Of a DNA stretch of 41,888 bases, positions 10,385 through 28,142 are shown one piece after another (the first letter of the stretch is position 1; each line of letters starts with the position of its first letter). The stretch is from the NCBI GenBank assembly GCA_015067435.1, contig SVMM01000022.1, positions 1 through 41,888 on the forward strand, read 5' to 3'. Below the pieces are notes generated by a model that had not been told where the DNA came from, did no database searches, and saw only the letters and a program-made list of their open reading frames with translations. This stretch comes from Oscillospiraceae bacterium (lineage in GTDB: Bacteria; Bacillota; Clostridia; Oscillospirales; Oscillospiraceae). The translations under genes and the position numbers were made by a program.

Positions 10385-10388
10385 CCCT

Positions 10389-11364: not shown

Positions 11365-11396
11365 AACGCTTCCCCCTCTCAAAATTTATTAACCAC

Positions 11397-11425
11397 AGTA
11401 TAACCGAAAGAACAATAATATGCAA
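11397..11425 (-). promoter_or_regulatory. Sigma-A promoter for the MNT/HepT operon
   Basis: On the minus strand: -35 TTGCAT (11420-11425), 17-bp spacer, -10 TATACT (11397-11402). It is 33 bp before the first toxin-antitoxin gene. The -35 covers the ATG at 11420 of the divergent Toprim gene. Confidence 0.7.
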
Positions 11426-12385: not shown

Positions 12386-14277
12386 TGATTGCCGTTGCCG
12401 CGCTCAGTCTGTTCGTCTGCGTCGTGCTCGCCGTCAGCAACCAGCAATCGCTCAACGGCATCAAGTCCCGCACCGTGGGTGACGGGCAGCACGGCACGGC
12501 GCGCTGGGCAACCGTGGACGAGATCCACGGGAGCTTCCGGCGCGTCCCGTTCCGCCCCAGGCTCTGGCGGAAGGATGTAAAGTCGCGTCCCGAAACGCAG
12601 GGCGTGATCCTCGGCAGCGAGAGTCAGCGTATTCTCAAGAGCTGGCGCGACGTGCGGAAGAAACGTTGGAATGTCACCGCGCTCGTGGACAGCGACGACG
12701 TCCACGTCCTTATGATCGGCGCGTCCGGCATCGGCAAGACCGCGTTCTTCCTCTATCCCAACTTGGAGTACGCCTGCGCCAGCGGCATGAGCTTTCTCGC
12801 GCTCGACACCAAGGGAGACCTCGCGCGCAACTATGGCGCGGTGGCAAAAGGCCATTACGGCTACGACGTCGCCGTGATCGACCTACGCAATCCCACGCGC
12901 TCGGATGGATACAACCTGCTGACGCTCATCAACACCTACATGGATAAGGCTCGGGAATACCCGGACAACCTCGCGTACCGCGCAAAGGCGGAGAAGTACG
13001 CGAAGCTGTTCGCCAAGACCATCATCAACCCCGACGGCGACTCGTCCAAGTACGGGCAGAACTCGTTTTTCTACGACGCCGCCGAGGGTCTGCTCACGGC
13101 GGTCGTGCTGGTGCTCTCGGAGTATCTCCCGCCCACGGACGCCGATCCCGCGGAGCGCCGCCACGTCGTCAGCGTCTTCAAGCTCGTGCAGGAGATGCTG
13201 GAGCCGTCCGAGGACGCCGAGCAGAAAAACGGCTTTGCCGCGCTCATGGAGCTTCTGCCCGATACGCACAAGGCGAAGTGGTTCGCGGGCGCGGCGCTCA
13301 ACAGCGCGGATCAGGCGATGCTCTCCGTCCTGTCCACGGTGCTCTCCCGCCTCAACGCCTTTCTCGACAGCGAACTGGAGCAGGTGCTGTGCTTTGACAG
13401 CGCCATCAACGCGGAGTCGTTTGCCGCGAACAAGTCCGCGATTTTTCTGATACTCCCGGAGGAGGATTCGACAAAGAACTTCATGGCGGGGCTTATGATC
13501 CAGACGCTCTCGCGTGAGTTGTTCGCGGTGGCGGACGAGAACGGCGGCGCGCTCAAAAACCGCGTGGTGTTCTTCTGCGACGAGCTCGGCACAATGCCCG
13601 CGTTCGATATCCTCCCGCTGTTCAGCGCGGGCCGCTCGCGCAAGCTGACGCTGGTGCCGATCATCCAGTCGCTCGCGCAGCTTGAAAAGAACTACGGCAA
13701 GGAGGGCGCGGAAATCATCACGGACAACTGCCAGGACACGATCTTCGGCGGCTTCGCGCCGAACTCGCAGACCGCCGAGGTGCTGTCCAAGGCGCTGGGG
13801 AATCAGACGATCCTCTCCGGCTCCGTCAGTAAGGGAAAGGACACCTCGCGCACGCTACAGATGATGCAGCGGCCGCTGATGACGCCGGACGAGCTCAAGA
13901 GCATTCCCAAAGGAAACTTTATCGTCATGAAAACCGGCACGCACCCCATGAAAACACGGCTGCGCCTGTTCCTCGAATGGGGCATCTCGTTTGGCGAACC
14001 CTATATCCTGCCGGAGCGCGCGGCGCGCAAGGTCGCCTACGCAGACCGCGACACGCTCATGCGGCGCGTCCACGAAGCCAACCCGTCCGTTCGCAAGCCG
14101 AAGCCCATAGCAAAAAAAGCGCCTCCGCGCGGCGGAATGCGCGTGGCAGCGGCGCAGGCGCAGATACCGAGGGCGCAGGCGGCAACGCCGCCTGTCCCGG
14201 AGCCGCGGGCGGAACCTGCGCGCGAGGAGCGCCGGGAGAGCGCCTATCAGTACGGGAGAAGGGAGTACAAGCCATGA
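12361..14277 (+). CDS. virD4: VirD4/TraG-family coupling ATPase (T4CP)
   Basis: 638 residues, ATG at 12361. One N-terminal membrane helix (residues 6-26, WPLMIAVAALSLFVCVVLAV), Walker A GASGIGKT at 120-127, Walker B VVFFCDELG with Asp407-Glu408. FLALDTKGDLARN and GRSRKLTLVPIIQSLAQLEKNYG are typical of TraG/VirD4. It forms the ring that links the relaxase-DNA complex to the secretion channel. The last 60 residues are Ala/Pro/Arg-rich and probably disordered. Together with VirB4 and the relaxase it completes the core conjugation set. Confidence 0.94.
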   Translation: MPSNVWPLMIAVAALSLFVCVVLAVSNQQSLNGIKSRTVGDGQHGTARWATVDEIHGSFRRVPFRPRLWRKDVKSRPETQGVILGSESQRILKSWRDVRKKRWNVTALVDSDDVHVLMIGASGIGKTAFFLYPNLEYACASGMSFLALDTKGDLARNYGAVAKGHYGYDVAVIDLRNPTRSDGYNLLTLINTYMDKAREYPDNLAYRAKAEKYAKLFAKTIINPDGDSSKYGQNSFFYDAAEGLLTAVVLVLSEYLPPTDADPAERRHVVSVFKLVQEMLEPSEDAEQKNGFAALMELLPDTHKAKWFAGAALNSADQAMLSVLSTVLSRLNAFLDSELEQVLCFDSAINAESFAANKSAIFLILPEEDSTKNFMAGLMIQTLSRELFAVADENGGALKNRVVFFCDELGTMPAFDILPLFSAGRSRKLTLVPIIQSLAQLEKNYGKEGAEIITDNCQDTIFGGFAPNSQTAEVLSKALGNQTILSGSVSKGKDTSRTLQMMQRPLMTPDELKSIPKGNFIVMKTGTHPMKTRLRLFLEWGISFGEPYILPERAARKVAYADRDTLMRRVHEANPSVRKPKPIAKKAPPRGGMRVAAAQAQIPRAQAATPPVPEPRAEPAREERRESAYQYGRREYKP

Positions 14278-14531
14278 GTTGGAATGAGCGCATCTATGCC
14301 GACGAGCGGCTTACGCACCGCGCGAGGGCGGTCTATATGTATCTCCGCGACCGCGCCGACGCAGACGGCAAGTGCTGGCCCGGCGTGAAGCGCATTGCTT
14401 CCGACCTGCACCTCTCCCGCAGGACGGCGCAAAGGGCGCTCGCCGACTTGGAGCAGGCCGGGTATATCAGGCGCGACGAGCGGTTCCGCGAGAACGGCAG
14501 CCGGACGTCGAATCTATACACGATACAATAG
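14274..14531 (+). CDS. Small winged-helix (replication initiator-type HTH) protein
   Basis: 85 residues; the ATG at 14274 overlaps the VirD4 stop. RARAVYMYLRDRADADGKCW, then GVKRIASDLHLSRRTAQRAL, ADLEQAGYIRRDERF, is a helix-turn-helix plus wing as in the N-terminal domain of RepA/DnaD-like initiators and helix-turn-helix_36 proteins. It probably regulates the operon or binds the element DNA. It is the last gene of the rightward transfer operon. Confidence 0.75.
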   Translation: MSWNERIYADERLTHRARAVYMYLRDRADADGKCWPGVKRIASDLHLSRRTAQRALADLEQAGYIRRDERFRENGSRTSNLYTIQ

Positions 14532-14657
14532 CGCGAAAAACGCGCCCCTCCGCCAAGGGAGGATCATACCCTCAACCTGACGCGAGAGGCGCGTCATCAT
14601 GGCGCGCCTTGAACGGCCCATTCTATCGGAAGAACTAACGCAGAGAAAGGAATCCTG

Positions 14658-15248
14658 TTACCACAGCCCGATCTGCGCGTCCAAAAGCTCTTTATCCAGT
14701 AGCGGCGGCGTCATACTCAGGAAATACTCTGTCACCGACATATCATACAGCCACGGCTCGATCTGCTCCCGCTCCAGCACCAGCGGCATACGGTCATGCA
14801 CCTCGCGCATGGAGTCGTTGGGAGCGGTCGTGAGGATGCAGAAGCACGGAACGCCGCCGCGCACATCGTAGATCCCCGCCATGTAGAGCGCCTGCTCACC
14901 CGGCAGCGTGAAGTGGTAACGCCGCTTGTAGCCATCCGACTCGTAGAACCCCGTTGAAGGAATTACACAATGCCGATAACGCGCGCTCTCGGCAAAGGTC
15001 GGCTTTTCCAGCGCGGTCTCAGCCTTTGCGTTGATGAGCATAGACTTCGGCGTCCGAAAGCCCCATACCATCAGCTCCGGCGTAGGCCCCTCGTCCGAGG
15101 CGATCAGCACCGGCATCTTGCAGCCGGGCGTGACTTCGCCCTGCCGCACCGCCTCTGCCGCCTGCGTGCCGAACTTGCTTTGCACCTCTTGGATGATCTG
15201 CGCGATCTCCTCGCATTGCTCCATTGTAAAACGATAGCGTCCGCACAT
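14658..15248 (-). CDS. yedK: YedK/HMCES-type abasic-site (SOSRAP) protein
   Basis: 196 residues. The ATG at 15248 gives MCGRY, so Cys becomes residue 1 after Met removal, as this family needs for its catalytic thiazolidine link to abasic sites in single-stranded DNA. Asn73 (NAKAET), Glu103 (GFYESDG) and His151 (HDRMP) match the active site. It shields abasic sites during replication. It is the last gene of a leftward operon with YolD-like and Y-family polymerase genes, so it fits a damage-tolerance set useful when single-stranded ICE DNA enters a cell (role inferred). Confidence 0.93.
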   Translation of the reverse strand: MCGRYRFTMEQCEEIAQIIQEVQSKFGTQAAEAVRQGEVTPGCKMPVLIASDEGPTPELMVWGFRTPKSMLINAKAETALEKPTFAESARYRHCVIPSTGFYESDGYKRRYHFTLPGEQALYMAGIYDVRGGVPCFCILTTAPNDSMREVHDRMPLVLEREQIEPWLYDMSVTEYFLSMTPPLLDKELLDAQIGLW

Positions 15249-15253
15249 AACGC

Positions 15254-15685
15254 TCACCATGCCTCCATCGTTGAAAACAGCTCGCCCGAAATGCCGTAGA
15301 CGTCGCCAATGGCGACCTCGCGCCCGTCCCGCAGGACGATGACGCGGCGAACCGTGTCAATCTTCTTAACGATCCCGCTGACTGTCTCATAGCTGCCGCC
15401 GTCCTTGCGGGCGTCCGGCTGAAAATAGGTGATCGACACCGTGGGCGAATCTGCAAGATGCTCCTCCAAGAGCTGAAGCCGCGCGTCAAGCTGTTCGATG
15501 CGCTCCTCGTCCAGCTCAATGCGCTCGTCCGTGAGGCGCGCGGTCTCCTCCACGTCGTCCTCATAGCCCGTGAGCGCCTTGAACGGGGCGAACTGTGCCG
15601 CGCGGTCGTAGAGCGACATCTGCGGATGCACGACGGAAACGTGGTGTGGCAGATGGATGATATCGTCATAGCTGCGCTTCGTCAT
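15254..15685 (-). CDS. YolD-like protein
   Basis: 143 residues; the start (15683-15685) overlaps the stop of the polymerase gene by 4 nt. The body (MTKRSYDDIIHLPHHVSVVHPQM, RAAQFAPFKAL, a coiled-coil at about 55-78, then a beta-rich end) matches the YolD-like family that is almost always next to UvrX/UmuC-type polymerases in Firmicutes. It is thought to play the UmuD-like partner role; direct biochemical proof is limited. Confidence 0.85.
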   Translation of the reverse strand: MTKRSYDDIIHLPHHVSVVHPQMSLYDRAAQFAPFKALTGYEDDVEETARLTDERIELDEERIEQLDARLQLLEEHLADSPTVSITYFQPDARKDGGSYETVSGIVKKIDTVRRVIVLRDGREVAIGDVYGISGELFSTMEAW

Positions 15686-17205
15686 GCCTTATGACCTCCG
15701 ATCTGGCCGTTGCGCTCCCTCGTCATCGCGCCGTCCTCGAAGTTCATGCCTTTGAGGATGGCGTTTTTTCCATACTTCTTTTGAATGGCGAGAATGGCGG
15801 TCTGGCGCTTCTTCTCACGCTCCCGTGCGGCCTTGTCCTCCGCCTCACGCTCCTCGACGCGGGTATAATCCGAGAACAGGTCAAGCTGCTCCGCCTTCGG
15901 CTCCTCCGGCGCGTCGCCCTCCGGCAGCACGCGGCCCGCGACGACGTAAACGCGCCGCACCAGCAATTTTGGATCGACGATGCGGTCGTAGAGCTTCATC
16001 GCCGCCGCGACGATCTCCCGCGACGAGGAGGTGTAGCGCGGCAGATTCTCCGTGCCGTGCGCGTGCTTCGGCACCCTGCGCCCGTAATGATCCACCATGA
16101 CCTTGCCGTGGTATGCCTCGCGCCGCGCGGGATCGGTGAGGTTTTCGATGTCGTAGCCTATCGTCAGCACGACTTGGTTGGTGACAAGTCCCTTGTCCAC
16201 AAGGTCAAGGCTCAGAAGATCGGTCATCTCGCGCACGATCAGCTTGCCGCCCTCGAAGTCGTAGGGGCGCTGGAGCACCTGCCCGGAGCCGAGGCTGTTG
16301 CTCTCGGAACGGTATGCCTTGATCTCCTTCATCGTGCAGGGCTCCCAGCCCCAGGCGTGGTCGATCAGCAGCTCGGCGTTGACGCCGAACAGGTCGTAGA
16401 GCAGTTCCTCGTTGTAGTATCCAAGCGGCGAACCCTCGGAGCAGCGCGCCACGTCGCCCATCGTATACATCCCATGTGCCGCGAGCTTCTTGGCGATGCC
16501 GGGGCCGACGCGCCAAATGTCCGTGATCGGCTCATGTCCCCAAAGTTGCCGGCGATACTCCATCTCGTCAAGCTCCGCGATGCGAACGCCGTCGCGGTCG
16601 GCGGGGATGTGCTTCGCCACCACGTCCATAGCGACCTTGGAGAGAAAGAGGTTCGTCCCAATGCCCGCCGTCGCCGTGATGCCCGTGGTGTGCAGCACAT
16701 CGCGGATCATCGTCATGGCAAGCTCGTGCGCGGTCATCTTGTGGAGCGTCAGGTACTCCGTCACGTCCATGAATACCTCGTCGATAGAATAGACGTGGAT
16801 ATGCTCCGGCGCAACGTATTTCAGGTAGATTTTGTAGATGTCGGTGCTGACCTTCTTATACCGCGCCATGCGTGGCGGCGCGACAATGTAGTCCACCGCC
16901 ACGGTCGGATCGGAGCGCGTCACGGTATCGTCGTAGATGCGGACATAGAGCTTGCCCTCCGGCGACCGACGCTCGCGCTGCGCGTTGACTTCGCACACCT
17001 TCTGCACGACCTCAAAGAGTCGCGGCCTTCCGGGGATGCCGTAGGCTTTGAGCGACGGCGACACCGCGAGGCAGATGGTCTTGTCCGTGCGGCTCTTGTC
17101 CGCCACGACGAGGTTGGTGGTCAGCGGATCAAGCCCGCGATCCACGCACTCGACGCTCGCGTAGAAGCTTTTGAGGTCTATTGCAACGTAGATACGCCCC
17201 GCCAT
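15682..17205 (-). CDS. Y-family DNA polymerase (UvrX/UmuC/DinB-like)
   Basis: 507 residues, ATG at 17205 after GGGAGGCGG. The palm-domain acidic residues are visible: Asp10 (YVAIDLKSFYASVE) and Asp142-Glu143 (HVYSIDEVFMDV). The C-terminus has a clamp-binding motif QLDLF at about 440-444, followed by a charged helix. It performs error-prone bypass of damaged bases. Head of the pol-yolD-yedK operon. The promoter at 17238-17266 is overlapped by a LexA-like palindrome, so SOS induction is likely. Length and sequence are closer to the Gram-positive UvrX group than to classical DinB. Confidence 0.92.
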   Translation of the reverse strand: MAGRIYVAIDLKSFYASVECVDRGLDPLTTNLVVADKSRTDKTICLAVSPSLKAYGIPGRPRLFEVVQKVCEVNAQRERRSPEGKLYVRIYDDTVTRSDPTVAVDYIVAPPRMARYKKVSTDIYKIYLKYVAPEHIHVYSIDEVFMDVTEYLTLHKMTAHELAMTMIRDVLHTTGITATAGIGTNLFLSKVAMDVVAKHIPADRDGVRIAELDEMEYRRQLWGHEPITDIWRVGPGIAKKLAAHGMYTMGDVARCSEGSPLGYYNEELLYDLFGVNAELLIDHAWGWEPCTMKEIKAYRSESNSLGSGQVLQRPYDFEGGKLIVREMTDLLSLDLVDKGLVTNQVVLTIGYDIENLTDPARREAYHGKVMVDHYGRRVPKHAHGTENLPRYTSSSREIVAAAMKLYDRIVDPKLLVRRVYVVAGRVLPEGDAPEEPKAEQLDLFSDYTRVEEREAEDKAAREREKKRQTAILAIQKKYGKNAILKGMNFEDGAMTRERNGQIGGHKA

Positions 17206-17237
17206 GCCGACCGCCTCCCTCGGATGAAAGTAACGCC

Positions 17238-17266
17238 ATCATATCACAGAGGAACGCAAAAAGCAA
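17238..17266 (-). promoter_or_regulatory. Promoter of the polymerase operon
   Basis: Minus strand: -35 TTGCTT (17261-17266), 17-bp spacer, -10 TATGAT (17238-17243), about 30 bp before the polymerase start. Confidence 0.75.
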
Positions 17267-17277
17267 ACAAATGTTTC
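17264..17277. promoter_or_regulatory. LexA-like operator candidate
   Basis: AAACAAATGTTT at 17265-17276 is a palindrome with the AAC-N4-GTT core of the Firmicutes LexA box (full consensus CGAAC-N4-GTTCG). The outer bases differ from consensus. It overlaps the -35 of the polymerase promoter, as a repressor site would. Confidence 0.5.
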
Positions 17278-17292
17278 ATAGCAATTTATGGA

Positions 17293-17324
17293 AACGCGCG
17301 CCCGATTCGCTTCGGACGCGCGTT
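17293..17324 (-). terminator. Terminator after the first XRE gene
   Basis: AACGCGCG (17293-17300) pairs with CGCGCGTT (17317-17324), with an inner CCGA/TCGG pair. It overlaps the stop codon of the leftward XRE gene. The T-run is weak. Confidence 0.5.
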
Positions 17325-17565
17325 AATCGTTCCCGTTTTCCGCCTCGCGCTCGATGCGCTCGACCAGCTCGTGCGGCGCGAGGTCAAAGGCGCAGGCAAT
17401 GCGCCAGATGGTCTCGAAGTTGGGCTGCTTCGCGCCGCTTTCGATCATGGAGATATGGCTGCGCGCCAATCCCGCCAAGCCGCTGAATACTTCCTGTGAC
17501 AAGCCCTTTTCCTGCCGTAGCTTGTAAACGGTTCGCGCAACCGCCATGTTGTCAAAGTCTATCAT
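17323..17565 (-). CDS. XRE-family transcriptional regulator
   Basis: 80 residues from the ATG at 17565 (GAGGGGTG about 7 nt upstream). The helix-turn-helix is clear: VYKLRQEKGLSQEVFSGLAG, then LARSHISMIESGAKQPNFET. There is no extra domain beyond a short charged tail, so it is probably a simple repressor. A palindrome at 17611-17630 in its upstream region is a likely site for it. It lies just upstream of the SOS-type operon, on the same strand. Confidence 0.85.
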   Translation of the reverse strand: MIDFDNMAVARTVYKLRQEKGLSQEVFSGLAGLARSHISMIESGAKQPNFETIWRIACAFDLAPHELVERIEREAENGND

Positions 17566-17610
17566 CGCAGACACCCCTCGTAACAACAGTAAAGGCAAAG
17601 CCTCGATTTA

Positions 17611-17630
17611 TTGTCTACGATGATAGACAA
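17611..17630. promoter_or_regulatory. Palindromic operator candidate
   Basis: TTGTCTA (17611-17617) and TAGACAA (17624-17630) are perfect inverted halves around 6 bp, 45 bp before the XRE start at 17565. Probably the autoregulatory site of that protein. Confidence 0.5.
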
Positions 17631-17663
17631 ATTTATGAAAGTGTGCTATTCTTGCGGTTAGAG

Positions 17664-17688
17664 CAAAAGCGCCGCCCGAAGGCGGCGC
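17664..17688 (-). terminator. Terminator after the second XRE gene
   Basis: GCGCCGCC (17669-17676) / CGAA / GGCGGCGC (17681-17688), followed on the minus strand by CTTTTGC. It lies 5 nt past the stop of the leftward gene. Confidence 0.7.
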
Positions 17689-17693
17689 AGGCA

Positions 17694-17933
17694 TCATGGC
17701 TCCAGATTACTTTCCTCAAACAGCGGCGAGTTGAAGAAATCGCTGATACTGATATTCAATCCTTGACACATCTCGTGGATGATGCGGAGTTTTACGGAAT
17801 CGTAGGCGCAGTTGATGACATTGCCAATGGTCGATTTTGGCACGCCGCTTTTCATGTAAAGCTGGTACTGCGTCATTCCGCGCGCTTTCAAAAGCTCGAT
17901 CAGTCGTTCGCTGATTGCCTCATTCAACTGCAT
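17694..17933 (-). CDS. XRE-family transcriptional regulator
   Basis: 79 residues. The HTH core is RLIELLKARGMTQYQLYMKS then GVPKSTIGNVINCAYDSVKL, followed by GLNISISDFF, typical of Cro/C1-type regulators. It is divergent from the SLOG gene at 18054. The shared 120-bp region carries two exact copies of a 13-mer (17950 and 17997), probably its operators. Confidence 0.85.
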   Translation of the reverse strand: MQLNEAISERLIELLKARGMTQYQLYMKSGVPKSTIGNVINCAYDSVKLRIIHEMCQGLNISISDFFNSPLFEESNLEP

Positions 17934-17949
17934 TTCATCACCGCTCGTT

Positions 17950-18009
17950 CCTGTAACTGTACCAATAATTATAGGTAAGTGGTTTGAAAAATAGTCCCTG
18001 TAACTGTAC
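17950..18009. promoter_or_regulatory. Paired operator repeats in a divergent promoter region
   Basis: CCTGTAACTGTAC occurs at 17950-17962 and 17997-18009, 47 bp apart. Each contains GTA-N4-TAC. The second copy ends 14 bp before TATGAT (18023-18028), a likely -10 for the rightward SLOG gene, so a repressor bound there would block it. Confidence 0.55.
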
Positions 18010-18053
18010 TATTGTGTTGAACTATGATAAAGTAAGCGCGGAGGTGCGATGCT

Positions 18054-18500
18054 ATGCCAAGCTGCTTTTTCATCGGGCACCGCAACGCGCCCGAAACGCT
18101 GCGTCCGCTGCTGGACGCAGCAGTAGAGCGCCATATCGCGGAATATGGCGTTACCGAGTTTGTCGCCGGACACTACGGGCGCTTCGACTATATGGCGGCG
18201 GGCGCGGTGCGGCGGGCAAAGGAGCGCCACCCGGACGTGATACTCACGCTGCTCTTGCCCTACTATCCGTTCGACCACGATACCGGCGACTATGACCGCA
18301 CCTATTACCCGGAGGGCATGGAGACTGTACCGAAGCCCTTTGCCATCGTCCGCGCCAACGAGTACATGATAAAAACCTGCGAATACCTCATTTGCTACGA
18401 CGCGGGGCTTGTCGGCAACACCGGCAGGCTCGTCAAGCGCGCGCTGCGGCGGCAAGCGAAAGGAGAAATGCGCGTTGAAAACCTCACGGAGCTTCTATAA
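18054..18500 (+). CDS. SLOG-fold protein (DUF1273/YpsA-like)
   Basis: 148 residues, ATG at 18054 after GGAGGTG. It opens with a Rossmann-like strand (MPSCFFIGHRNAPETLRPLL), then EFVAGHYGRFDYMAAGAV and ICYDAGLVGNTGRLVKRAL, matching the SLOG superfamily that binds nucleotides or nucleotide signals. Members occur often on mobile elements; their function is mostly unknown. It follows the operator-rich divergent region and precedes the recombinase gene by 78 bp. Confidence 0.7.
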   Translation: MPSCFFIGHRNAPETLRPLLDAAVERHIAEYGVTEFVAGHYGRFDYMAAGAVRRAKERHPDVILTLLLPYYPFDHDTGDYDRTYYPEGMETVPKPFAIVRANEYMIKTCEYLICYDAGLVGNTGRLVKRALRRQAKGEMRVENLTELL

Positions 18501-18578
18501 ACAGATCACATAAACCCCCGAAAAACGGGCATGATATACTATTCTTTTACCCATTTTACGGAAAAAGGAGAACAAATC

Positions 18579-19415
18579 ATGCTCGTTTTTACTGACGCTG
18601 ACATAGACTGCTTTGCTCTTTCCCTTGCCGAGCGGGAGTACAGCGCCGCCACGGTTTCGCAGTATGCGCGCTGCGCGCGGCTGCTGATGGACTTTTCACC
18701 CGGCGGCGTTGCCGACCGCGCGGCGCTGGCGGGGTTTCGGGACTACCTCGCGGCGCGCGGCTACGCCCCCGCAAGCGTCAACGCCGTTCTCGGCGCGGTC
18801 AACCGCTTTTTGTCGTTCCTCGGCTCGGACTGGCGGCTCAAATATCAGCGCGTCCAGTGCAAGACCTTCCTGCCAGCCGACCGGGAACTGACCCACAGGG
18901 AGTATGAGCGCATGGTACGCGCCGCCGAACAAAGCGGCGACGAACGCCTTGCGCTGCTAATCCAGACGCTCTGCGCTCTCGGGCTGCGGGTCAGCGAGCT
19001 GGGGGCGATCACCGTGGAGAGCCTGCGGCGCGGCGAAGCCGCCATCCAGAACAAAGGCAAGCTCCGCGCCATCCTCATTCCCCACGCGCTGGCGAAGAAG
19101 CTGAAAGCCTACTGCGAACGGCGGGGCGTCACCAGCGGCAGCGTGTTCGTCACCCGGACGGGCAAGCCGCTGGACCGCTCGAACGTCTGGAAGATGCTCA
19201 AAAAGCTGGCGGAGGTAGCAAAGGTAGCGGCGAAGAAAGTCTTTCCGCACAACCTGCGCCACCTGTTCGCCCGGACGCACTACGACCGATTCCGCGACCT
19301 CGCCCGCCTCGCGGACATCCTCGGCCACAGCAGCGTGGACACCACCCGCATCTACACGAGGCGAAGCGGGCAAGAAGAAAGGCGGCAGCTGGGTCAGCTC
19401 CGCCTGATTTTATGA
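18579..19415 (+). CDS. Tyrosine recombinase, probable DNA invertase for the adjacent promoter switch
   Basis: 278 residues; the ATG at 18579 follows AAAAAGGAG. All catalytic residues are present: Arg137 (LGLRVSEL), Lys161 (QNKGK), His224-Arg227 (HNLRHLF), His250 (LGHSS) and nucleophile Tyr259 (TRIYTRR). It is short, with a SAM-like core-binding domain (residues about 5-85) and no arm-binding domain, as in XerC/D and simple invertases rather than ICE integrases. It is separate from the ICE integrase at 28409. Its 3' end lies 83 bp from a perfect inverted-repeat pair that brackets a promoter, so its likely job is to flip that segment. TATACT at 18535-18540 may be its -10. Confidence 0.85.
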   Translation: MLVFTDADIDCFALSLAEREYSAATVSQYARCARLLMDFSPGGVADRAALAGFRDYLAARGYAPASVNAVLGAVNRFLSFLGSDWRLKYQRVQCKTFLPADRELTHREYERMVRAAEQSGDERLALLIQTLCALGLRVSELGAITVESLRRGEAAIQNKGKLRAILIPHALAKKLKAYCERRGVTSGSVFVTRTGKPLDRSNVWKMLKKLAEVAKVAAKKVFPHNLRHLFARTHYDRFRDLARLADILGHSSVDTTRIYTRRSGQEERRQLGQLRLIL

Positions 19416-19421
19416 AGCCAT

Positions 19422-19455
19422 ATTTCGCGGTTGCCGCGCCAGCGGCGAGCGAAAT
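19422..19455 (-). repeat. REP-like hairpin repeat, solitary copy
   Basis: Outer arms ATTTCG (19422-19427) and CGAAAT (19450-19455), inner arms GCCGC/GCGGC. Read on the minus strand it matches the repeats at 39306-39423 (shared core GATCGCC-like start, CTCGCCGC, GCGGCAACCG). It lies just after the recombinase stop and may also act as its terminator. Confidence 0.6.
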
Positions 19456-19498
19456 GGCGACCAGCGTACTTTTTTCGAAGGGAATAAGTACAACATAA

Positions 19499-19515
19499 TG
19501 TGTATTATGTGGTAA
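19499..19515 (+). repeat. Left inverted repeat (IRL) of the promoter switch
   Basis: TGTGTATTATGTGGTAA, identical to the reverse complement of 19730-19746. The left copy also forms ACATAAT (19493-19499) / ATTATGT (19504-19510). Confidence 0.9.
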
Positions 19516-19536
19516 TTACATAACTAAAGTGCCTAC

Positions 19537-19565
19537 AGTATAGCAAAAACCCGCACAAAAATCAA
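19537..19565 (-). promoter_or_regulatory. Sigma-A promoter inside the invertible segment, pointing away from the surface-protein gene
   Basis: Minus strand: -35 TTGATT (19560-19565), exactly 17 bp, -10 TATACT (19537-19542). Transcription would start near 19530 and run left across IRL and antisense into the recombinase gene. After inversion it would start about 80 nt before the ATG at 19794. Confidence 0.75.
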
Positions 19566-19611
19566 CGCATTTTTGCGTGATTTCGCGGTTTCCCGGTTTT
19601 TGCGGGCATGG

Positions 19612-19667
19612 CAGCACAGCCGGACGCCTTTCATTTTTGACGTTCGGCTTGTCGTGCTGTCTTTTTT
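19612..19667 (+). terminator. Terminator inside the invertible segment, facing the surface-protein gene
   Basis: CAGCAC (19612-19617) pairs with GTGCTG (19654-19659) with further inner pairing, followed by TTTTTT (19662-19667). There is no T-run on the other strand. In this orientation it blocks read-through from the recombinase gene. Confidence 0.7.
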
Positions 19668-19729
19668 CGGAAAAACGCGGCGTTCCCGCTCGTTTTCCGC
19701 GCCCGTTTCGGCGCGTCCCGGCGCGGCGT

Positions 19730-19746
19730 TTACCACATAATACACA
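19730..19746 (-). repeat. Right inverted repeat (IRR) of the promoter switch
   Basis: TTACCACATAATACACA, the exact reverse complement of 19499-19515. It lies 47 bp before the surface-protein start codon. Confidence 0.9.
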
Positions 19747-19793
19747 ATCTGTGGTAAACGCAACCGCAACGGCGGGAAACGGAGGTACCGGAT

Positions 19794-22700
19794 ATGAAAC
19801 AAACAGGAAGAAAACTCACAAGCTGGCTTTTGACGCTGGCGATGCTCGTCGGGCTGCTGCCCGCGACGGTGCTGCCCGCTCGGGCGAACATAACGGTGAC
19901 GACGCTGACCAGTTCGACGGGGCGGCCGCTTTCTTCCGGCGTTTACTATGTGAATGAGAGCGTCACATTTACCGGCTCTGCGGGGAACCCGGGCCTTGCT
20001 ATCGCGTCCGGCGCGACGGTCTACATCTACGTCCAGGCGGATAAGACGCTCACCGCTACGGGCGGGAACGCGAGCGGAAAGACCGGCGGCGGCGCGGGTA
20101 TTCTGGTGCCCTCCGGCAGCACCCTGTACCTGCTGGGTGAGGGCTCTGTAGTAGCCAAAGGCGGCGACGCGGCGAACGGCACGGCAGGCGTCAATGGTAG
20201 CGGCGGAACAGTGAACTACATTAACGATAATGGCCGTAGGTCTTACGCACAAGGTGGCAACGGCGGCAACGGCGGCAACGGCGGCGGAGGCGCGGGCGCA
20301 GGGATCGGTAGCAACGGCGGCAACGGCGGCAACGGCGGCAGCGGCGGTAGAAAGGGAGAACTGGGTTGGAATAATGGTAGTACAACTGGTATGCTTTCGG
20401 CAACAAATGGCTCCGCCGGAGGTAGCGGTACTGCCGCCGCTGCCTTTGGCAGCATATATGTCCAGACCAGATTATCAATAACCGCAACGGGCGGCAGCGG
20501 CAAGTCCACATCCTGGGGCAGCAACGGAAGTGGAGGCGCAATCAGCGGAACGAAGCAGCATATTTCGGGTGGAATGACTTTTCAGGCTACCGGCGGTGGA
20601 GGCGGCGGAGGCGGCCAGGGCGGCGGAGCCGGTGCGAACTATGGGAGCGGCGGCACAGGCGGCGGAGGCGGCGGAGGCGGCGGAGGCGGCGCCGCTGGTT
20701 ATGCCAATTTGAATCCCACCGCTGGTCAGAGTGGCAGCAATGGAGCCGGGGGGAAGGGCGGCTATCTCAATATGACTTCTGATTGGAATATGGGACCTCA
20801 AACCACCGGCGGAACCAAGGGCAGTGGCGGCAGCACGGGCGCGTCCGTGCAGCCAACCTCCGTCAACTACTATACGGTCACCTTTACCGACGCTTCCGCA
20901 AATGCTGAACAGTCGTATCTGTTCTGGAAAGAGGGCGTTACCGTCACCGTACCGTCGTCGTACACGCCGCCTGTTGGCAAAATCTTCCAAAACAAATGGA
21001 AGGTCACCACGGCGGGTACTTTTGTGGGCAACGAGGTGTCTCCCCCGCTGACAACGGTCAATGAGGAGTATGACAACGGCGCGACCATCACCATCGCGCC
21101 GGGTACGAAGGGCAACATCATCCTGACTGCGGTGACGAAGGATGTGGAAGCACCTGTCATCGACCCGCAGCCCATCGCCAGCCTCACCGGTTGGACCTAC
21201 GGCGACGCGGTGGCCGCGGCGAGCCGCACCTTGTCCGTCGCCGCCACCGTCAGCGACGGCGGCACGCTGTCCTACCAGTGGTACAGCAACACCGCCAACA
21301 GCAACAGCGGCGGCACCGAGATCGACGACGCGACGGGAACGAGCTACACCGTCCCCGACGGCACGGGTACAAATGCGGGCACGCACTATTACTACTGCGT
21401 GGTGACCAACACGCTGAGTGGAGGCACCAACAAAACGGCGAGCAGCGTAGCGTCGCTGACCGTGGGGCCAAAGACGGTCACGCTGGAATGGGGCGCGCAC
21501 GAATTTACCTACGACGGCACAGCGCAGAAGCCCTCGGCAAGCGTGAGCAATCTGGAAGGCGGCGACACCTGCGCCGTGACCGTCACGGGTGGGGAGACCA
21601 ATTCCAACGCAAAAGCGGGCAACACGAATTACACCGCGACGGCAACGGCACTGAGCAATACAAATTACACGCTAACGGGAACGACCAACTCGACGCAGAC
21701 CTTCACCATCGCGCAGCGCCCTGTCACCATCACGGCGAAGCCGCAGAGCGTGGAGCTGAACGCCCCCATTGAGACAGGCACGGATCAGGTGGTGTGCGAC
21801 ACCGAGCTTTTGCCCGCCACCGACAGCCTGACCGCAATCACGCTGACGCCGACCGAACGGGACGCCCTCACCACGACAGGGACGATCACGCCCAGCGCCG
21901 CGACCATCGAAAACGGCGGCGCTGACGCGACGGACAACTATGAAATCACCTATGTCAACGGCAATCTGACCGTCACAAAGGGCAATCCCGTTGTGAACGT
22001 GACCGCGCCGACCGCCTCCGAAATCATCTACGGCGATACGCTGAGCATGAGCAATCTGTCGCTGGACGGCAAAATGAAGGACGCGCATACCGGCGCGGAA
22101 GTACCCGGCACGTTCGCATGGGAGACAGGCACGACCGTCCCCGACGCGACGCAGGGCAGCCCCGCAAGCTATACAGTCCGATTCACACCGGACGAAAGCT
22201 TCGCCACGCTCTATGAGGCAACGACCATCGAAGTCCCTGTCACGGTGGCAAAGCGCGTTGTTGAGCTGAACTGGGGCAATAACGCATTCACCTACAACAG
22301 CGAGGCGCAGAAGCCCGCCGCCACTGTGACAAACCTTGTCACAGATAGGGGCGACACAACGGAGACGGTTGCCGTGACCGTCACGGGCGAGCAGACCGAT
22401 TCCAACGCGAAAGCGGGCAACACGGAATACACCGCCACGGCGTCGGGGCTGACCGGCGACCGCGCGGCGAACTATACGCTGGAAGGTACGACGAACCCGA
22501 CGCAGACCTTCACCATCGCGCAAAAGGCAATCACCATCACCGCGCAGGATCAGACCGCGCAGTGCGGCGACGACCACGCGGACGGCAACGAGAATATCAA
22601 GATCACGAGCGACGGCTCTGCCGCCACCATGGTCGAGGCGGCGATCTCGGCGGCGGTCACGGTGGCGACGCTCGCGGAGGGCGACAAGCTGACCTCCATC

Positions 22701-25700
22701 AATCTCAAAGGCGATACGTCCGCCGTTGCCGCAAATCTCCCGCTGGTTGCTGATGGCGCGGTCATCAAGGACGGCGAAACGGTCGTGACGGGCAACTATG
22801 ACATTACCTATGTGGAGGCAAATCTGCTGCAGGTCATCCCCACGCGGCCCATGATCAAAACCGGGGAGTCCGTCACGGCAGGCGCCATTACCTACGGGCA
22901 GTCGTTGGAGAACAGCGCCATTACCGGCGCGGTCATGCAGGATAAGAACACCAGCGCGACCGTGGAAGGTACATTTGCGTGGAAGGACAAGGCCATCAAG
23001 CCCGCCGTGTCGGACAGCAACTCGACAAAGTATATTGTGGTCTTTACGCCGTCCAACTCGAATGACTACAGCCCCACGGAGATCGAGGTCACGGTCGAGG
23101 TTGGCAAAGCGCCCCTGACCGTCACCGCAGAGGACAAGGAGATGGTCTATCGCACGACCGTCCCCGCATTGACCTATACGGTCGAGGGACTGGTCAACAA
23201 CGAGACCGCCTCTGTCGCGCTGGAGGGCGCGCTGACGACCACGGGCAGCAGCACCGCGAGCGTGAACACCTATGACATTACGCAGGGCGATCTGACAGCG
23301 ACCGCGAATTACACGATCAGCACATTTAATAAAGGAACACTGACCATCAAAAAAGCGGATCAGACCGCACCCGCCGCAAAAGAGGGCTACACCATCAGCG
23401 GCGGCGAGATCACGGTCAAGACGGACAAGAACACCGCCGCCAACAACGAAACGGGCTACGAGGTCTACGAGTTCACCGGTGCGGAAGACACGACCGGCAC
23501 GAAGAAAGACAGCCCCGTCACCATCGACGCCGCGAAGCTCTACAAGATCCGCTGGGCGGGCGGCGACAATTACAACGCCTCGCCGTGGACGGACATCGCC
23601 ACCACCGCGAACGTCACCGTAACGATCACGCCGGACGGCGCGGCGGGCAGCGTCGCGCTGACGAACGGCGGCAAGTACCCCATCAGCTCCTCCGTCACGC
23701 TGAATGCGGCGGCGAACACGGGCTATCAGTTCGCGTCGTGGCAGGACAGCAGCGGCAAGACGCTGGGCTACAATGCGGCGTATACCTTCACGCTGGACGG
23801 CGATACCGCGCTCAAGGCGGTGTTCGTGGACAGCAGCAAGACGGTGGTGCAGCTCCCTGTCGCCGCGGCGACGAGCAGTTTCACCTATGACGGCACGGAG
23901 AAAACCGGCGTAACGGCAAGTGACGCTAATTGCACGCTCACGAACGGCAAGGCCACCGACGCGGGCAGCTACACCGCCACCGCCACGCTCGCCGAGGGCA
24001 ATTACATTTGGGCGGACGGTACCACCGACGCGAAGACCTTCCCGTGGAGCATCGCCAAGGCGGAGCAGGCAAAGCCGACTGTTGAAGTCACCGGCAGCAA
24101 TCCCTATACCATCACGGCAACGCCCGCAAGCGGAACGGTTCCGCAGAACCCCGCGCTGGTGGTCTACTACACGCAGGACAACACCAAGCCCAAGTTGGAG
24201 TGGACGCCGATGCCGGACGGCGGCATCACGGGCGCCGTCGGCGTGTACTATTTCTACACCAAGGGCAACAACAACTACAACGACAGCGAGGTGGCAACGA
24301 GATCCGTCGGCAAGCCCACCGTGGTCTCCACGCTCCAGCCGACAGGCCTTGCGACAGACGGAGCGACACTCAACGGCAGCGTGTCCGACCCGGACGCGAA
24401 CATCAAGGGCTCCGGCGTCAACAGCGTGAAATACCAGTGGAAACGCGCGGACGCGACGAGCTGGACGGAGATTGAAACCCCGACCTATACATACGAAAGC
24501 GCCAAGCCGTTCAACGCAACCGCCACGCTCTCCGGTCTGACGCAGGACACCGAGTATCTGTACCGGCTGGTCGTGACGCTGAAAAACGACAGCGAGCTTC
24601 CCGGCAACACGATCCGGTTCCGCACGCCGAAGGTGACGCCGCCCACCGGCTCGATCACGGTAACGGTAAACTCTACCCCCACAGGTAAGGATGTGGTCGT
24701 CTCCGTTGAGGAGGGCAACGACATCATTGCCTCTCAAGAGTGCAAAACGGACAATTCGGTTACATTCACTCAGTTGCCCGACGGCTTCTACAACGTGGTC
24801 GTGCGCAGTAAGGACGGCAATTACGTTGAGACGCGCATGATCGCCATTCAGAACGGCACGGGCACGGCGACCACGTTTACCATCCCCAGCGGCAAACTGG
24901 CGACTGAGGTGGACATCAAGGACGCCGATACCCCGCCCATCGCCGTCGAGGGCCTGAACGATATCATCACTACGGCCGAGAAGGACGATGCGGCGGCCGG
25001 CACGAAAAATGTTGAGGTCGTGCTGGAGGTCGATAAGAAGGAAACGAATGAGCTTCCCGCCGCCGAGGTCAGCGCGCTCAACGCCGTGGTCGTCGCGGGC
25101 GGCAAGATCGACATGTACCTCGACCTGAGCCTCTACAAGACCACAACGACGCTTTCGGGCGGTGGCATCATTACCGGCAGCACAAAGGATGACATCGGCG
25201 GCACGAATACTAAGGTGCTGGAAATCGCCATCCCCTATGCTGACGCCAAGGCCAAGGATATCATGGTGTATCGCTACCATAAAGGCGCTGCCTCGGCGCT
25301 TACCAAGGTGGATGCCAGAATCGCCAACCCCTCGGCTGCGGACAACGGCAAGTTCTATGTGGATAAGGATAACGGCTATATCTTCCTTTACGCAATGGAC
25401 TTCTCCACCTACGCCATCGGCACGCCGAAGCCCGCGCCTGCGCCTGCACCTGCACCTGCACCTACAGGCGGTGGCGGCGGATGGTTCCCCACGCCGACGC
25501 CGACTCCCACGCCCACGCCCGCAAAGGATATTACCGATCCGACCGTGACAGGCGTTGCGGACTGGCTCATCACCGACGACCATATCGTTTATCTCAATGG
25601 GTATGAGGACGACACGATCCGCCCGAACAGCAACATCACCCGCGCGGAGGTCTCCATGATCTTCTACCGTCTGCTCAAAAACAAGGACGTGACGATCACC

Positions 25701-26192
25701 AAGAGCTTCACGGACGTTCCGGACGGCGAGTGGTACTCACAGGCGGTCGGCGTGCTGTCGAACCTCGGCATCCTGCGCGGCTATGAGGACGGCGACTTCC
25801 GCCCGCAGAATCCCATCACGCGAGCGGAGTTCACCGCGATTGCCACGCGGTTTGCAAAGGCGACCAACGGCACGGCGAGCTTCCTCGACGTTCCCGAAAA
25901 CCACTGGGCGTATGGCAACATCGCAACAGCGTCGGACTACGGCTGGGTGAACGGGTACGGCAACGGCTACTTCGGGCCGAATGACAGCATCACCCGCGCC
26001 GAGGCTGCGACCATCGTGAACCACATGCTCGGACGCGCCGCGGATCAGGAGTGGGTACTGGCGAACCCCGACAAAATCAAGTATTTCGCCGACCTGCAAG
26101 ATCCGAGGAAGTGGTACTACCTCGATATGGTCGAGGCCAGCAACGAACACGACTTCACAAAGGATAACGGCGAAGAGAAGTGGAAGAAATAA
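19794..26192 (+). CDS. Giant SLH-anchored surface protein, probable phase-variable adhesin
   Basis: 2132 residues; ATG at 19794 after GGAGGT (19781-19786). The signal peptide is about 1-31 (LLTLAMLVGLLPATVLPARA). Then: a beta-rich part (32-90); a Gly/Ser/Asn-rich part (about 94-348) encoded by GGC-rich near-repeats; Ig-like and MBG-like modules, with paired copies starting near 561 (LEWGAHEFTYDGTAQKP) and 822 (LNWGNNAFTYNSEAQKP); an InlB/Listeria-Bacteroides repeat (about 1272-1342); a fibronectin-III-like part (near 1500-1600); a Pro-rich linker at about 1879-1908 (PAPAPAPAPTGGGGG, then PTPTPTP); and three SLH domains (about 1922-2081) that bind cell-wall polymer. No catalytic domain is seen, so adhesion or surface shielding is the likely role. 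The upstream invertible promoter implies ON/OFF expression. Confidence 0.92.
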   Translation: MKQTGRKLTSWLLTLAMLVGLLPATVLPARANITVTTLTSSTGRPLSSGVYYVNESVTFTGSAGNPGLAIASGATVYIYVQADKTLTATGGNASGKTGGGAGILVPSGSTLYLLGEGSVVAKGGDAANGTAGVNGSGGTVNYINDNGRRSYAQGGNGGNGGNGGGGAGAGIGSNGGNGGNGGSGGRKGELGWNNGSTTGMLSATNGSAGGSGTAAAAFGSIYVQTRLSITATGGSGKSTSWGSNGSGGAISGTKQHISGGMTFQATGGGGGGGGQGGGAGANYGSGGTGGGGGGGGGGGAAGYANLNPTAGQSGSNGAGGKGGYLNMTSDWNMGPQTTGGTKGSGGSTGASVQPTSVNYYTVTFTDASANAEQSYLFWKEGVTVTVPSSYTPPVGKIFQNKWKVTTAGTFVGNEVSPPLTTVNEEYDNGATITIAPGTKGNIILTAVTKDVEAPVIDPQPIASLTGWTYGDAVAAASRTLSVAATVSDGGTLSYQWYSNTANSNSGGTEIDDATGTSYTVPDGTGTNAGTHYYYCVVTNTLSGGTNKTASSVASLTVGPKTVTLEWGAHEFTYDGTAQKPSASVSNLEGGDTCAVTVTGGETNSNAKAGNTNYTATATALSNTNYTLTGTTNSTQTFTIAQRPVTITAKPQSVELNAPIETGTDQVVCDTELLPATDSLTAITLTPTERDALTTTGTITPSAATIENGGADATDNYEITYVNGNLTVTKGNPVVNVTAPTASEIIYGDTLSMSNLSLDGKMKDAHTGAEVPGTFAWETGTTVPDATQGSPASYTVRFTPDESFATLYEATTIEVPVTVAKRVVELNWGNNAFTYNSEAQKPAATVTNLVTDRGDTTETVAVTVTGEQTDSNAKAGNTEYTATASGLTGDRAANYTLEGTTNPTQTFTIAQKAITITAQDQTAQCGDDHADGNENIKITSDGSAATMVEAAISAAVTVATLAEGDKLTSINLKGDTSAVAANLPLVADGAVIKDGETVVTGNYDITYVEANLLQVIPTRPMIKTGESVTAGAITYGQSLENSAITGAVMQDKNTSATVEGTFAWKDKAIKPAVSDSNSTKYIVVFTPSNSNDYSPTEIEVTVEVGKAPLTVTAEDKEMVYRTTVPALTYTVEGLVNNETASVALEGALTTTGSSTASVNTYDITQGDLTATANYTISTFNKGTLTIKKADQTAPAAKEGYTISGGEITVKTDKNTAANNETGYEVYEFTGAEDTTGTKKDSPVTIDAAKLYKIRWAGGDNYNASPWTDIATTANVTVTITPDGAAGSVALTNGGKYPISSSVTLNAAANTGYQFASWQDSSGKTLGYNAAYTFTLDGDTALKAVFVDSSKTVVQLPVAAATSSFTYDGTEKTGVTASDANCTLTNGKATDAGSYTATATLAEGNYIWADGTTDAKTFPWSIAKAEQAKPTVEVTGSNPYTITATPASGTVPQNPALVVYYTQDNTKPKLEWTPMPDGGITGAVGVYYFYTKGNNNYNDSEVATRSVGKPTVVSTLQPTGLATDGATLNGSVSDPDANIKGSGVNSVKYQWKRADATSWTEIETPTYTYESAKPFNATATLSGLTQDTEYLYRLVVTLKNDSELPGNTIRFRTPKVTPPTGSITVTVNSTPTGKDVVVSVEEGNDIIASQECKTDNSVTFTQLPDGFYNVVVRSKDGNYVETRMIAIQNGTGTATTFTIPSGKLATEVDIKDADTPPIAVEGLNDIITTAEKDDAAAGTKNVEVVLEVDKKETNELPAAEVSALNAVVVAGGKIDMYLDLSLYKTTTTLSGGGIITGSTKDDIGGTNTKVLEIAIPYADAKAKDIMVYRYHKGAASALTKVDARIANPSAADNGKFYVDKDNGYIFLYAMDFSTYAIGTPKPAPAPAPAPAPTGGGGGWFPTPTPTPTPTPAKDITDPTVTGVADWLITDDHIVYLNGYEDDTIRPNSNITRAEVSMIFYRLLKNKDVTITKSFTDVPDGEWYSQAVGVLSNLGILRGYEDGDFRPQNPITRAEFTAIATRFAKATNGTASFLDVPENHWAYGNIATASDYGWVNGYGNGYFGPNDSITRAEAATIVNHMLGRAADQEWVLANPDKIKYFADLQDPRKWYYLDMVEASNEHDFTKDNGEEKWKK

Positions 26193-26329
26193 CAAATCTT
26201 TTTCCTGCCCCATGCGGTGAGGAGGCGCTGGCAGCAGGAAGAAACAGGCGATGTGATTGATCGAACATACAGCCGCCCCTCTCTACGGGGAGGGGCGTGA
26301 GAAGAAAAATATCATATTGCCCGGTGTGA

Positions 26330-26370
26330 GGGTGTGGAAAGCCAAGTGGCCTTCCACACCCTTATTTTTG
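26330..26370 (+). terminator. Strong Rho-independent terminator after the surface-protein gene
   Basis: GGGTGTGGAA (26330-26339) pairs with TTCCACACCC (26352-26361) plus inner GCC/GGC, then TTATTTTT. Confidence 0.85.
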
Positions 26371-26436
26371 TCGACCGTCATCGACAGTGTTCCCTATCAT
26401 TTTTTGGGGAATAGCGTCGAGGGCGGTCGATTTTTC
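26371..26436 (+). terminator. Second, long terminator-like hairpin
   Basis: TCGACCG (26371-26377) pairs with CGGTCGA (26424-26430), with inner TCGAC/GTCGA and TTCC/GGAA pairs, followed by TTTTTCTT. It follows the first terminator immediately. Confidence 0.65.
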
Positions 26437-26593
26437 TTGCCGGGAAATGCCACACCCTGCCGGGAAAAGCTCAAAAATGTAAATTTCGGCAGTTTAACCA
26501 AGAGAAACAGCGGCTTTTGGTGTTTTCCGCGAGGCCCGCCCCGTTTCTGAAATCTGGATTTTACCATATTTCAGAAAACGGAGGTTACACCGC

Positions 26594-27139
26594 ATGAAGA
26601 AGCGGTTTTATATCAAAAAGAACCCATCCGCTCAAGGAAACGACATTGAGTGGATCGAATTAAGCAAGCAGGCGTTCACAGCCTTCCTTGCCTCACCTGA
26701 AAGCAAGGGAAGATACTTCGTCAACATGGGAAACGCCATACTCGAAGCTTCGGAAGAAGCATACCTTGATTGGCTCAAGGAGAAGAACCACAGGGACTAC
26801 CTGCGCAAGCAGGCCAATGGTATAACCGTTTTGTCGATTTCGGAAAACGAAGATGCAGAAAGAGAAAGCGGTGAGAGTGCAATTAAGGACGCGTCGGTCG
26901 ATATGGAGGCAGATGTGCTTCGCAAAATAGACTTGGAGGCGCTGCGGTCTTCCCTCGCATCACTTGACGACGAGAGTTACTACATCATCCACTCGCTTTT
27001 TTTTGCTGAAAACCCGCTGTCGACGCGGGAGATGGAGAATAAACTTGGCGTTTCACACACCGTTATCGTCAGACGAAAGAATAAAATTTTGAAAAAAATG
27101 AAATTAGGTGTTTCCAAATCGGAAAAAAGTCAGCAATAA
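26594..27139 (+). CDS. Sigma-70-region-4-like regulator
   Basis: 181 residues; ATG at 26594 after GGAGGTT. The C-terminal part is a sigma-region-4-type HTH: ALRSSLASLDDESYYIIHSL, then PLSTREMENKLGVSHTVIVR, RRKNKILKKMKLG. The N-terminal part (MKKRFYIKKNPSAQGNDIEW, TAFLASPESKGRYFVNMG) is not a known sigma domain. Similar small sigma-like proteins are common near the integrase end of Clostridial ICEs, where they are thought to control excision or transfer genes. It is AT-richer than its neighbours, a sign of separate origin. Confidence 0.7.
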   Translation: MKKRFYIKKNPSAQGNDIEWIELSKQAFTAFLASPESKGRYFVNMGNAILEASEEAYLDWLKEKNHRDYLRKQANGITVLSISENEDAERESGESAIKDASVDMEADVLRKIDLEALRSSLASLDDESYYIIHSLFFAENPLSTREMENKLGVSHTVIVRRKNKILKKMKLGVSKSEKSQQ

Positions 27140-27984: not shown

Positions 27985-28054
27985 GGCACTGGCAGCTTTT
28001 TACCCAATGATTCGCACAATTCTTCATTAGGTTTGGTAATAGCAATTCAGCCGA

Positions 28055-28121
28055 GGGTTTGGTATTGTGTGTCGCTGAAGGAGCGTACTCCTTACAGCAC
28101 GGGACACACGATACCAAGCCC
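28055..28121. other. 67-nt near-perfect hairpin between mazF and the excisionase-like gene
   Basis: GGGTTTGGTATTGTGTGTC (28055-28073) faces GACACACGATACCAAGCCC (28103-28121): 19 pairs, of which two are G-T wobbles. Inside, GCTG-AAGGAG pairs with CTCCTT-CAGC. A partial copy, GGTTTGGTAAT, lies just upstream (28030-28040). The wobble positions favour an RNA structure over a DNA operator. Confidence 0.65.
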
Positions 28122-28142
28122 TCTCATTTACGGAGGAAAACA

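Follow-up and report, generated by a model that had tools for sequence, protein, structure and literature searches.

A probable DNA-inversion switch for an SLH surface protein, carried by an ICE in Oscillospiraceae

The DNA analysed here (the window) comprises the entire contig C36, 41,888 bases, from a 3.34-Mb Oscillospiraceae genome in 36 contigs (G000). It carries conjugation genes, a tyrosine recombinase gene, a pair of short inverted repeats and a large SLH surface protein gene, with an integrase gene and a tRNA gene further to the right. The features are listed below (window positions, strand in parentheses).

1957-3918 (+): VirB4-like conjugation ATPase (NCBIfam VirB4_plasma 282 bits, below the cut-off of 590; Pfam AAA_10)
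8355-10352 (+): MobL relaxase (Pfam, E 3.5e-31)
12133-14277 (+): VirD4-like coupling protein, CD1115 family (NCBIfam NF045973 256 bits, cut-off 250; Pfam T4SS-DNA_transf)
18531-19415 (+): tyrosine recombinase, 294 aa, proposed cognate invertase (Pfam Phage_integrase, E 2e-25)
19416-19460 (no strand): 45-bp intergenic repeat that recurs across the genome, here separating the recombinase stop from the left site (own-genome search)
19489-19515 (no strand): left recombination site, with the perfect repeat 19499-19515 and the proposed core TGTGTA at 19499-19504
19516-19729 (no strand): proposed invertible segment, 214 bp (from sequence and reversed homologues)
19537-19565 (-): promoter-like site TTGATT-17-TATACT with extended -10 TG (consensus scan), pointing left, away from the SLH gene
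19610-19667 (+): terminator-like hairpin and T-run, reading right, toward the SLH gene in the present orientation
19726-19761 (no strand): right recombination site, with the perfect repeat 19730-19746, dyad arms 19726-19737/19750-19761 and the proposed core TACACA
19781-19785 (+): GGAGG, Shine-Dalgarno-like, ahead of the SLH gene and external to the segment (from sequence)
19794-26192 (+): surface protein, 2132 aa, proposed switch target (MBG_2 and InlB-like repeat domains; C-terminal SLH domains)
28409-29797 (+): ICE integrase, a tyrosine recombinase with an HTH insert (domain search)
29960-30040 (-): tRNA-Pro(CGG), 29965-30040, with attR at its 3' end (RNA and repeat search)

The exact 17-bp inverted repeats (19499-19515, minus strand; 19730-19746, plus strand) enclose 214 bp, so that, as in an inverton, inverted repeats bound a short intergenic segment. 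Between the end of the recombinase ORF (19415) and the left repeat are 83 bp, and the ATG of the SLH protein gene (19794) follows the right repeat by 47 bp, with GGAGG in between. All of these repeats, distances and flanking genes are as the original prediction had given them. It had also placed the right repeat in a symmetric site with 9-bp arms; the symmetric site is present, but it is a perfect dyad with 12-bp arms (19726-19737 and 19750-19761). The left repeat forms an imperfect dyad as seen in the sequence. Ungapped extension lengthened the repeats to 27 bp (24/27 matching) with 214 bp between them. At ≤3 mismatches the two repeats were the sole matches across the window (0.02 expected; two matches in 0/100 shuffles), and a scan of the 3.34-Mb genome at the same tolerance added only two matches, with 3 mismatches each. 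A search that scored 40 of 83 candidates gave the palindromic 45-bp repeat at 19416-19460 at least 45 own-genome matches, of which one is the locus itself, 42 fall over the 19416-19460 stretch and two lie elsewhere in the query; two near-copies were seen within the window at about 39303-39428. In another genome of the genus, G016, the site starts no more than about 12 bp from the end of the recombinase match and the 45-bp repeat is missing. This repeat is probably a bystander.

The catalytic motif of tyrosine site-specific recombinases is R-K-H-R-H-Y, and the protein encoded at 18531-19415 has all six residues (R153, K177, H240, R243, H266 and Y275). Its best NCBIfam matches are of the XerA/XerC/XerD type, every one below its curated cut-off. 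Across 79 aligned recombinases, the window's included, R, H, R and H were found in 79, and K and Y in 78 each. A Mantel test on 56 loci gave a correlation between recombinase and repeat similarity (r 0.354; 0/2000 permutations as high), which was weak outside close relatives (r 0.198 for pairs below 70% identity, an unpermuted value). The near-identical copy of the window locus, L062, was removed before the Mantel, catalytic-residue and dyad tests. We infer that this recombinase acts on the adjacent site pair.

The original prediction had singled out no promoter sequence. A single promoter-like match was detected within the scanned region 19380-19830 (0.3 expected), and its -10 element lies about 21 bp inside the left repeat. 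The weighted promoter score in the segment was 10.7 vs. 8.5 for the best match on the opposite strand; the promoter inside the segment, another feature expected of an inverton, is a consensus prediction only. Since the sole promoter-like site faces left, the assembled orientation is predicted to be OFF. Folding of 19600-19672 gave -29.9 kcal/mol (z -4.2; 0/200 shuffles equally good), and a script also found the 19610-19667 hairpin (-27.6). A simple terminator scanner missed this hairpin; its sole listing was a weak minus-strand one at 19578-19565 (chance mean 1.2), which lies upstream of the predicted start. A terminator-like hairpin in the promoter's own direction was also found in the window (-16.7), upstream of the predicted start. 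The folding model predicts that the 19610-19667 hairpin and its T-run would stop read-through toward the SLH gene; promoter and terminator activity are those suggested by consensus and folding.

A strong hairpin with a T-run facing the SLH gene would also suit a cwpV-like switch, in which transcription starts from a promoter external to the segment and a terminator is created or lost on inversion. This hairpin could stop read-through from ICE genes further upstream, and promoter inversion and termination may then both contribute. As the account of the switch, however, such a terminator mechanism is improbable: the sole promoter-like match at 19380-19830 lies inside the segment, and among 63 related loci the better strand reached a promoter score of ≥10.4 in 38, vs. 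30/630 single control strands (about 1/10 would be expected for the better of two). A layout of the cwpV type, with the promoter outside the segment, was looked for at 19380-19830 and rejected on the position of this site. According to the available part of the C. difficile report, the cwpV repeats are 21 bp, imperfect and 195 bp apart, and RecV belongs to the XerC/D family (PMC2784873). The window locus resembles cwpV in its short repeats directly upstream of a large cell-wall protein gene, its XerC/D-like recombinase and its predicted ON/OFF surface expression. It differs in that the cwpV promoter is upstream of the segment, terminator formation is proposed there and recV is unlinked to cwpV, and the original prediction's statement that cwpV uses the same layout does not hold against that text (PMC2784873). 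An invertible promoter is the reading followed below.

Of 18 genomes in the genus, 8 contain a relative of the recombinase (E ≤1e-20), as do 106 of the 400 genomes sampled from the family (E ≤1e-60), the own genome being included in both counts; the family survey scored no more than 6 candidates in each genome, which makes its per-genome matches lower bounds. Eighty stretches were fetched, and together with the window 80 recombinase matches at E ≤1e-40 were examined, L066 having no match. The fetched loci are mostly the best-scoring recombinase matches and are biased to close relatives. Eight of the 80 loci had less than 350 bp downstream, and the other 72 were scored for repeats. An inverted repeat scoring ≥14 was present in 58 of them and in 0/1500 Markov-sampled controls. 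The gap was 150-345 bp in 57 loci; the 58th, L142, has a 61-bp gap and is probably something else. Among the 14 loci without a repeat at this threshold, a wider look revealed repeat pairs in L063, L068 and L069, weaker ones in six, and none in five. Distant recombinases (28-31% identity; second matches in L076, L077, L078, L079, L091 and L101) had no such downstream repeat, which serves as a small negative control. The repeats were dyads in 31/56 cases vs. 64/2800 shuffles. Controls for repeats, promoters and hairpins were first-order Markov samples, and those for dyads were plain shuffles. In one relative (G230:C23:17696-18550) the recombinase gene carries two in-frame TAG codons, and the adjoining repeat pair matches at 20/21 (L071).

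Promoter direction was scored in 63 loci, including those with weaker repeats, and gave 13 ON, 27 OFF and 23 undecided. For L064, the alignment decided the call (OFF), because one scoring of its promoters gave a tie and another narrowly favoured ON. The 40 called loci showed a terminator-like hairpin opposing the promoter in 34 cases and one in the promoter's direction in 25, compared with 208/630 per strand in the controls; hairpins are thus enriched in both directions, more so opposed. The window and L062 are both counted in the segment-pair, repeat and promoter totals.

Comparison of 33 segments gave 23 pairs alignable at the threshold, 10 of them reversed. The reversed pairs share loci and fall in three groups, and so are not independent: L064 vs. 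L063 and L066; L073 and L078 vs. L076 and L077; and L085 vs. L081-L084. In each group the flanks are colinear. The recombinase, the reversed segment and the downstream DNA are, respectively, 88, 87 and 72% identical between L063 and L064, 81, 76 and 88% between L077 and L078, and 89, 82 and 73% between L084 and L085. All reversed comparisons are between relatives and not within one strain (five reversed pairs were measured, with recombinase DNA identities of 67-89%). Homologous loci that never show the segment flipped had been named beforehand as evidence against inversion; reversal in 10 of the 23 alignable pairs is the opposite result. Contig ends near the switch might hint at mixed orientation; those within 300 bp of the recombinase match were found on the 3' side in 8/80 loci and on the 5' side in 3/80, too few to rely on.

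Four loci with related sites occur in G016, on contigs C13, C18, C28 and C48. The eight sites found there at ≤1 mismatch form exactly four inverted pairs, and the control pattern gave 0. When each locus is drawn with the recombinase or its remnant on the left and the gene on the right, the promoter end is turned toward the gene in C28, C18 and C48 but toward the recombinase in C13. These orientations come from the sequences, with C48 also called by score and C13 compared with C28 and C18 by alignment. Between C13 (OFF) and C18 (ON), the outer arms are alike (16/16 and 15/16 printed bases), and the inner arms are exchanged around TGCACA (20/20 and 19/20). Since the two outer arms of these loci are alike, C13 and C18 by themselves confine the crossover only to a stretch of about 16 bp, made up of TGCACA and the outer arm. 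In both C28 and the window locus, the paired sites differ within 1-2 bases outside the core. Tyrosine recombinases generally require their sites to match where strands are exchanged. If that applies here, the sequences would place the crossover within a core of 6-7 bp. At the C18 locus (L066, 8777-8881) the paired sites persist and the promoter end faces the gene, while the adjacent recombinase is cut to its last 35 residues.

Dyads of this kind could also bind a regulator, and the repeats might then be operators or RNA structures that never recombine. Segments reversed with exchanged inner and fixed outer arms, and repeat pairs beside most of the recombinase relatives examined, would both be unexpected under that explanation, which we regard as highly improbable; the operator-only reading was rejected on the segments reversed in place.

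The only other copy found of the exact locus is in G003 and has the same orientation (214/214 bases); no flipped copy of it was found, nor any further copy in the named genome collection or in viral contigs. An identical recombinase is encoded by the MAG Oscillospiraceae bacterium isolate SIG461 (SVKM01000046.1), in a contig of 14,541 bases that is evidently the same as G003:C54. The proposed search for a flipped segment was thus successful for homologous loci, reversed in three groups, but not for the exact locus with its one same-orientation copy. Both copies share the predicted OFF orientation and the 27-bp arms carry 3 mismatches, as might be seen in a locked or decaying switch, one built for inversion whose flipping has ceased in this lineage. 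That a switch can be left without its enzyme is shown by the site pair in G016:C18, whose recombinase is down to the last 35 residues. In the window, however, the recombinase is an open frame with six catalytic residues and the inner arm plus core (17 bp) is perfect, and two nearly identical copies of one element tell little about the flip rate. We consider loss of flipping quite improbable, and by comparison of sequences the exact locus is likely to invert in cells.

The switch lies among the genes of an ICE. The window holds a relaxase, a coupling protein and a VirB4-type ATPase (the latter below the NCBIfam cut-off), together with an integrase and, at tRNA-Pro, one of the two att repeats, and the element shows evidence of transfer between hosts. 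The attL copy of the 3' part of the tRNA (51 bp, 98%) is at G000:C14:16924-16974, and C14 and C36 presumably adjoin in the genome. Identity to G003:C54 is 99.96% across window 6790-21330 (6 mismatches), and identity to G003:C36 is 99.77% across window 21332-30122; C14:13010-16975 matches G003:C124 at 99.6%. These pieces total 27.3 kb, with window 1-6789 and C14:1-13009 outside the comparison. The left chromosome past the att repeat is 81.5% identical between G000 and G003 over 687 bp; the right chromosome, on the same G003:C36 contig, is 82-83% identical and 71% further out. Because the element is near-identical and the adjoining chromosomes are divergent, we concluded that one element occupies the same tRNA in two species and was recently acquired by at least one of them. 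Carriage on an ICE, as originally predicted, is supported by the conjugation genes, the att repeats in tRNA-Pro and this near-identity across two species with divergent flanks. Related conjugation genes are found beside the switch in G016:C13 and G189:C42.

The XerC/D-like recombinase lies within a mobile element, and its repeats might be taken for att or gene-cassette sites. That they are so used is highly improbable: the sites are inverted and not direct, the ICE has its own integrase with att repeats in tRNA-Pro, and homologous segments are reversed in place. The att-site or cassette reading was rejected on the inverted sites and the separate integrase with its att repeats. Other observations on the element include a Cro/C1-type HTH domain between the SAM-like and catalytic domains of the ICE integrase (28409-29797) and a pemK RNA motif (RF02913, 27362-27465) ahead of a PemK/MazF-like toxin gene (27616-27984). 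The other part of the ICE (L114, 4370-9416 and 12142-13341) encodes a SpaA-repeat protein of 978 aa and a D12 methyltransferase; it also has a match to ArdA, a weak one that stays below the Pfam cut-off.

The N-terminus of the 2132-aa surface protein is signal-peptide-like by eye. Target types outside the window were read from N-termini. Large secreted-looking proteins follow the switch in the window, L064, L071, L073, L076-L078 and L088, and response-regulator-like first genes in L065, L068, L090, L092 and L094-L096; other types occur as well. Switches of the L081-L085 subgroup precede a small gene with an N-terminus like MAHTTARLDLTGQRFGKLTVV, whose product bears no resemblance to a surface protein. 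The gene directly behind the switch in L091 (1767-2840) encodes a second, distant tyrosine recombinase with 31% identity to that of the window.

The central claim of the original prediction, an invertible promoter switch, is supported by the single promoter-like site inside the segment, the six catalytic residues and the reversed homologues between colinear flanks. The locus is very probably a site-specific DNA-inversion switch for the SLH surface protein, carried by the ICE. In the mechanism we propose, strand exchange by the tyrosine recombinase of 18531-19415 would take place in a short core of each dyad site, here probably TACACA, and would invert the 214-bp segment. A single outward promoter would sit near one edge of the segment, with a terminator-like hairpin directed toward the opposite edge. 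In the assembled, OFF orientation, transcription from the promoter would run leftward, antisense to the recombinase gene, and any transcripts coming from the ICE genes upstream would be stopped by the hairpin before they reach the SLH gene. Inversion (ON) would bring the promoter in front of the ribosome-binding site that the SLH gene itself carries, so that it drives the gene; the flip would control SLH expression. The module would travel with the ICE between species of the genus. A recipient would gain a new surface protein plus the means to vary it, an ON/OFF switch travelling with its own enzyme between Bacillota species.

The invertase reads toward the segment, in the window as in the examined loci (there by scan design), and for this reason the OFF promoter would transcribe antisense into the invertase gene; through such transcription the switch may exert feedback on how often it flips. 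It is also conceivable that an ICE-borne invertase may flip resident switches sharing its sites, including G016:C18 with its remnant recombinase. A wider proposal includes both possibilities and is offered tentatively, as rather doubtful: a portable family of switch cassettes (XerC/D-like invertase, outward promoter, opposed terminator and a variable surface or signalling gene) would be spreading in Oscillospiraceae, partly on ICEs and plasmids. The family is searchable, since for most of the relatives examined the repeats can be found from the recombinase gene alone.

The E. coli fim switch, which is not known to lie on an ICE, differs from the window locus in having two recombinases and in serving fimbriae. 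It resembles the window locus in its promoter within the segment, its adjacent recombinase genes and the switching of a surface structure, as described in the available part of PMC2784873. Inversions are reported from many Clostridia (PMC5903667). The accessible text of PMC11892184 describes inverton group 139 (33 invertons, 32 of class Clostridia) with a nearby tyrosine-type invertase, group 35; orientation shifts of group 139 are seen in reads, e.g., in Intestinimonas butyriciproducens, where the coordinates imply 14-bp repeats 227 bp apart. The window locus, compared by description only, resembles this pair of groups in its tyrosine-type recombinase near a short invertible segment, and geometry and class agree. 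Unlike the window locus, group 139 is described in that text with no mention of ICE carriage or SLH targets (PMC11892184). Invertible promoters with their invertases occur on Bacteroidales ICEs, which share with the window promoter inversion, a nearby invertase, ICE carriage and spread by transfer; their cargo is antibiotic-resistance or glycan-synthesis genes in the part of PMC8748976 covered, whereas that of the window is an SLH protein in Oscillospiraceae.

No ICE-borne invertible promoter for an SLH protein in Oscillospiraceae was found in the literature searched, a set outside which most subscription papers fall. The suggestion that the combination has no described precedent stands for the Oscillospiraceae SLH setting, as far as the texts available go, and fails for invertible promoters with invertases on ICEs, already known from Bacteroidales (PMC8748976). 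The locus is a well-supported invertible promoter on an ICE; the kind of switch is already known, and this member and its Oscillospiraceae setting are new within the literature searched.

Plasmids carry related loci as well. Five plasmid records contain a recombinase relative, and four were inspected for repeats. No convincing repeats were seen beside the recombinase relative of Sebaldella termitidis pSTERM02, and perfect repeats of 22 and 21 bp were found at the plasmid loci of Monoglobus pectinilyticus and Subdoligranulum variabile, respectively. Plasmid pMM59_01 of Pusillibacter faecalis (NZ_AP023421.1) differs from the window locus in being a plasmid and not an ICE, in its repeat sequence, in an unclear promoter direction (scores of 10.5 vs. 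9.8) and in having no switch annotation in the table examined. It resembles the window locus in its recombinase relative (40% identity) and perfect 20-bp inverted repeats 268 bp apart; the gene after the repeats is annotated as an SLH-domain protein, and the plasmid is typed as conjugative.
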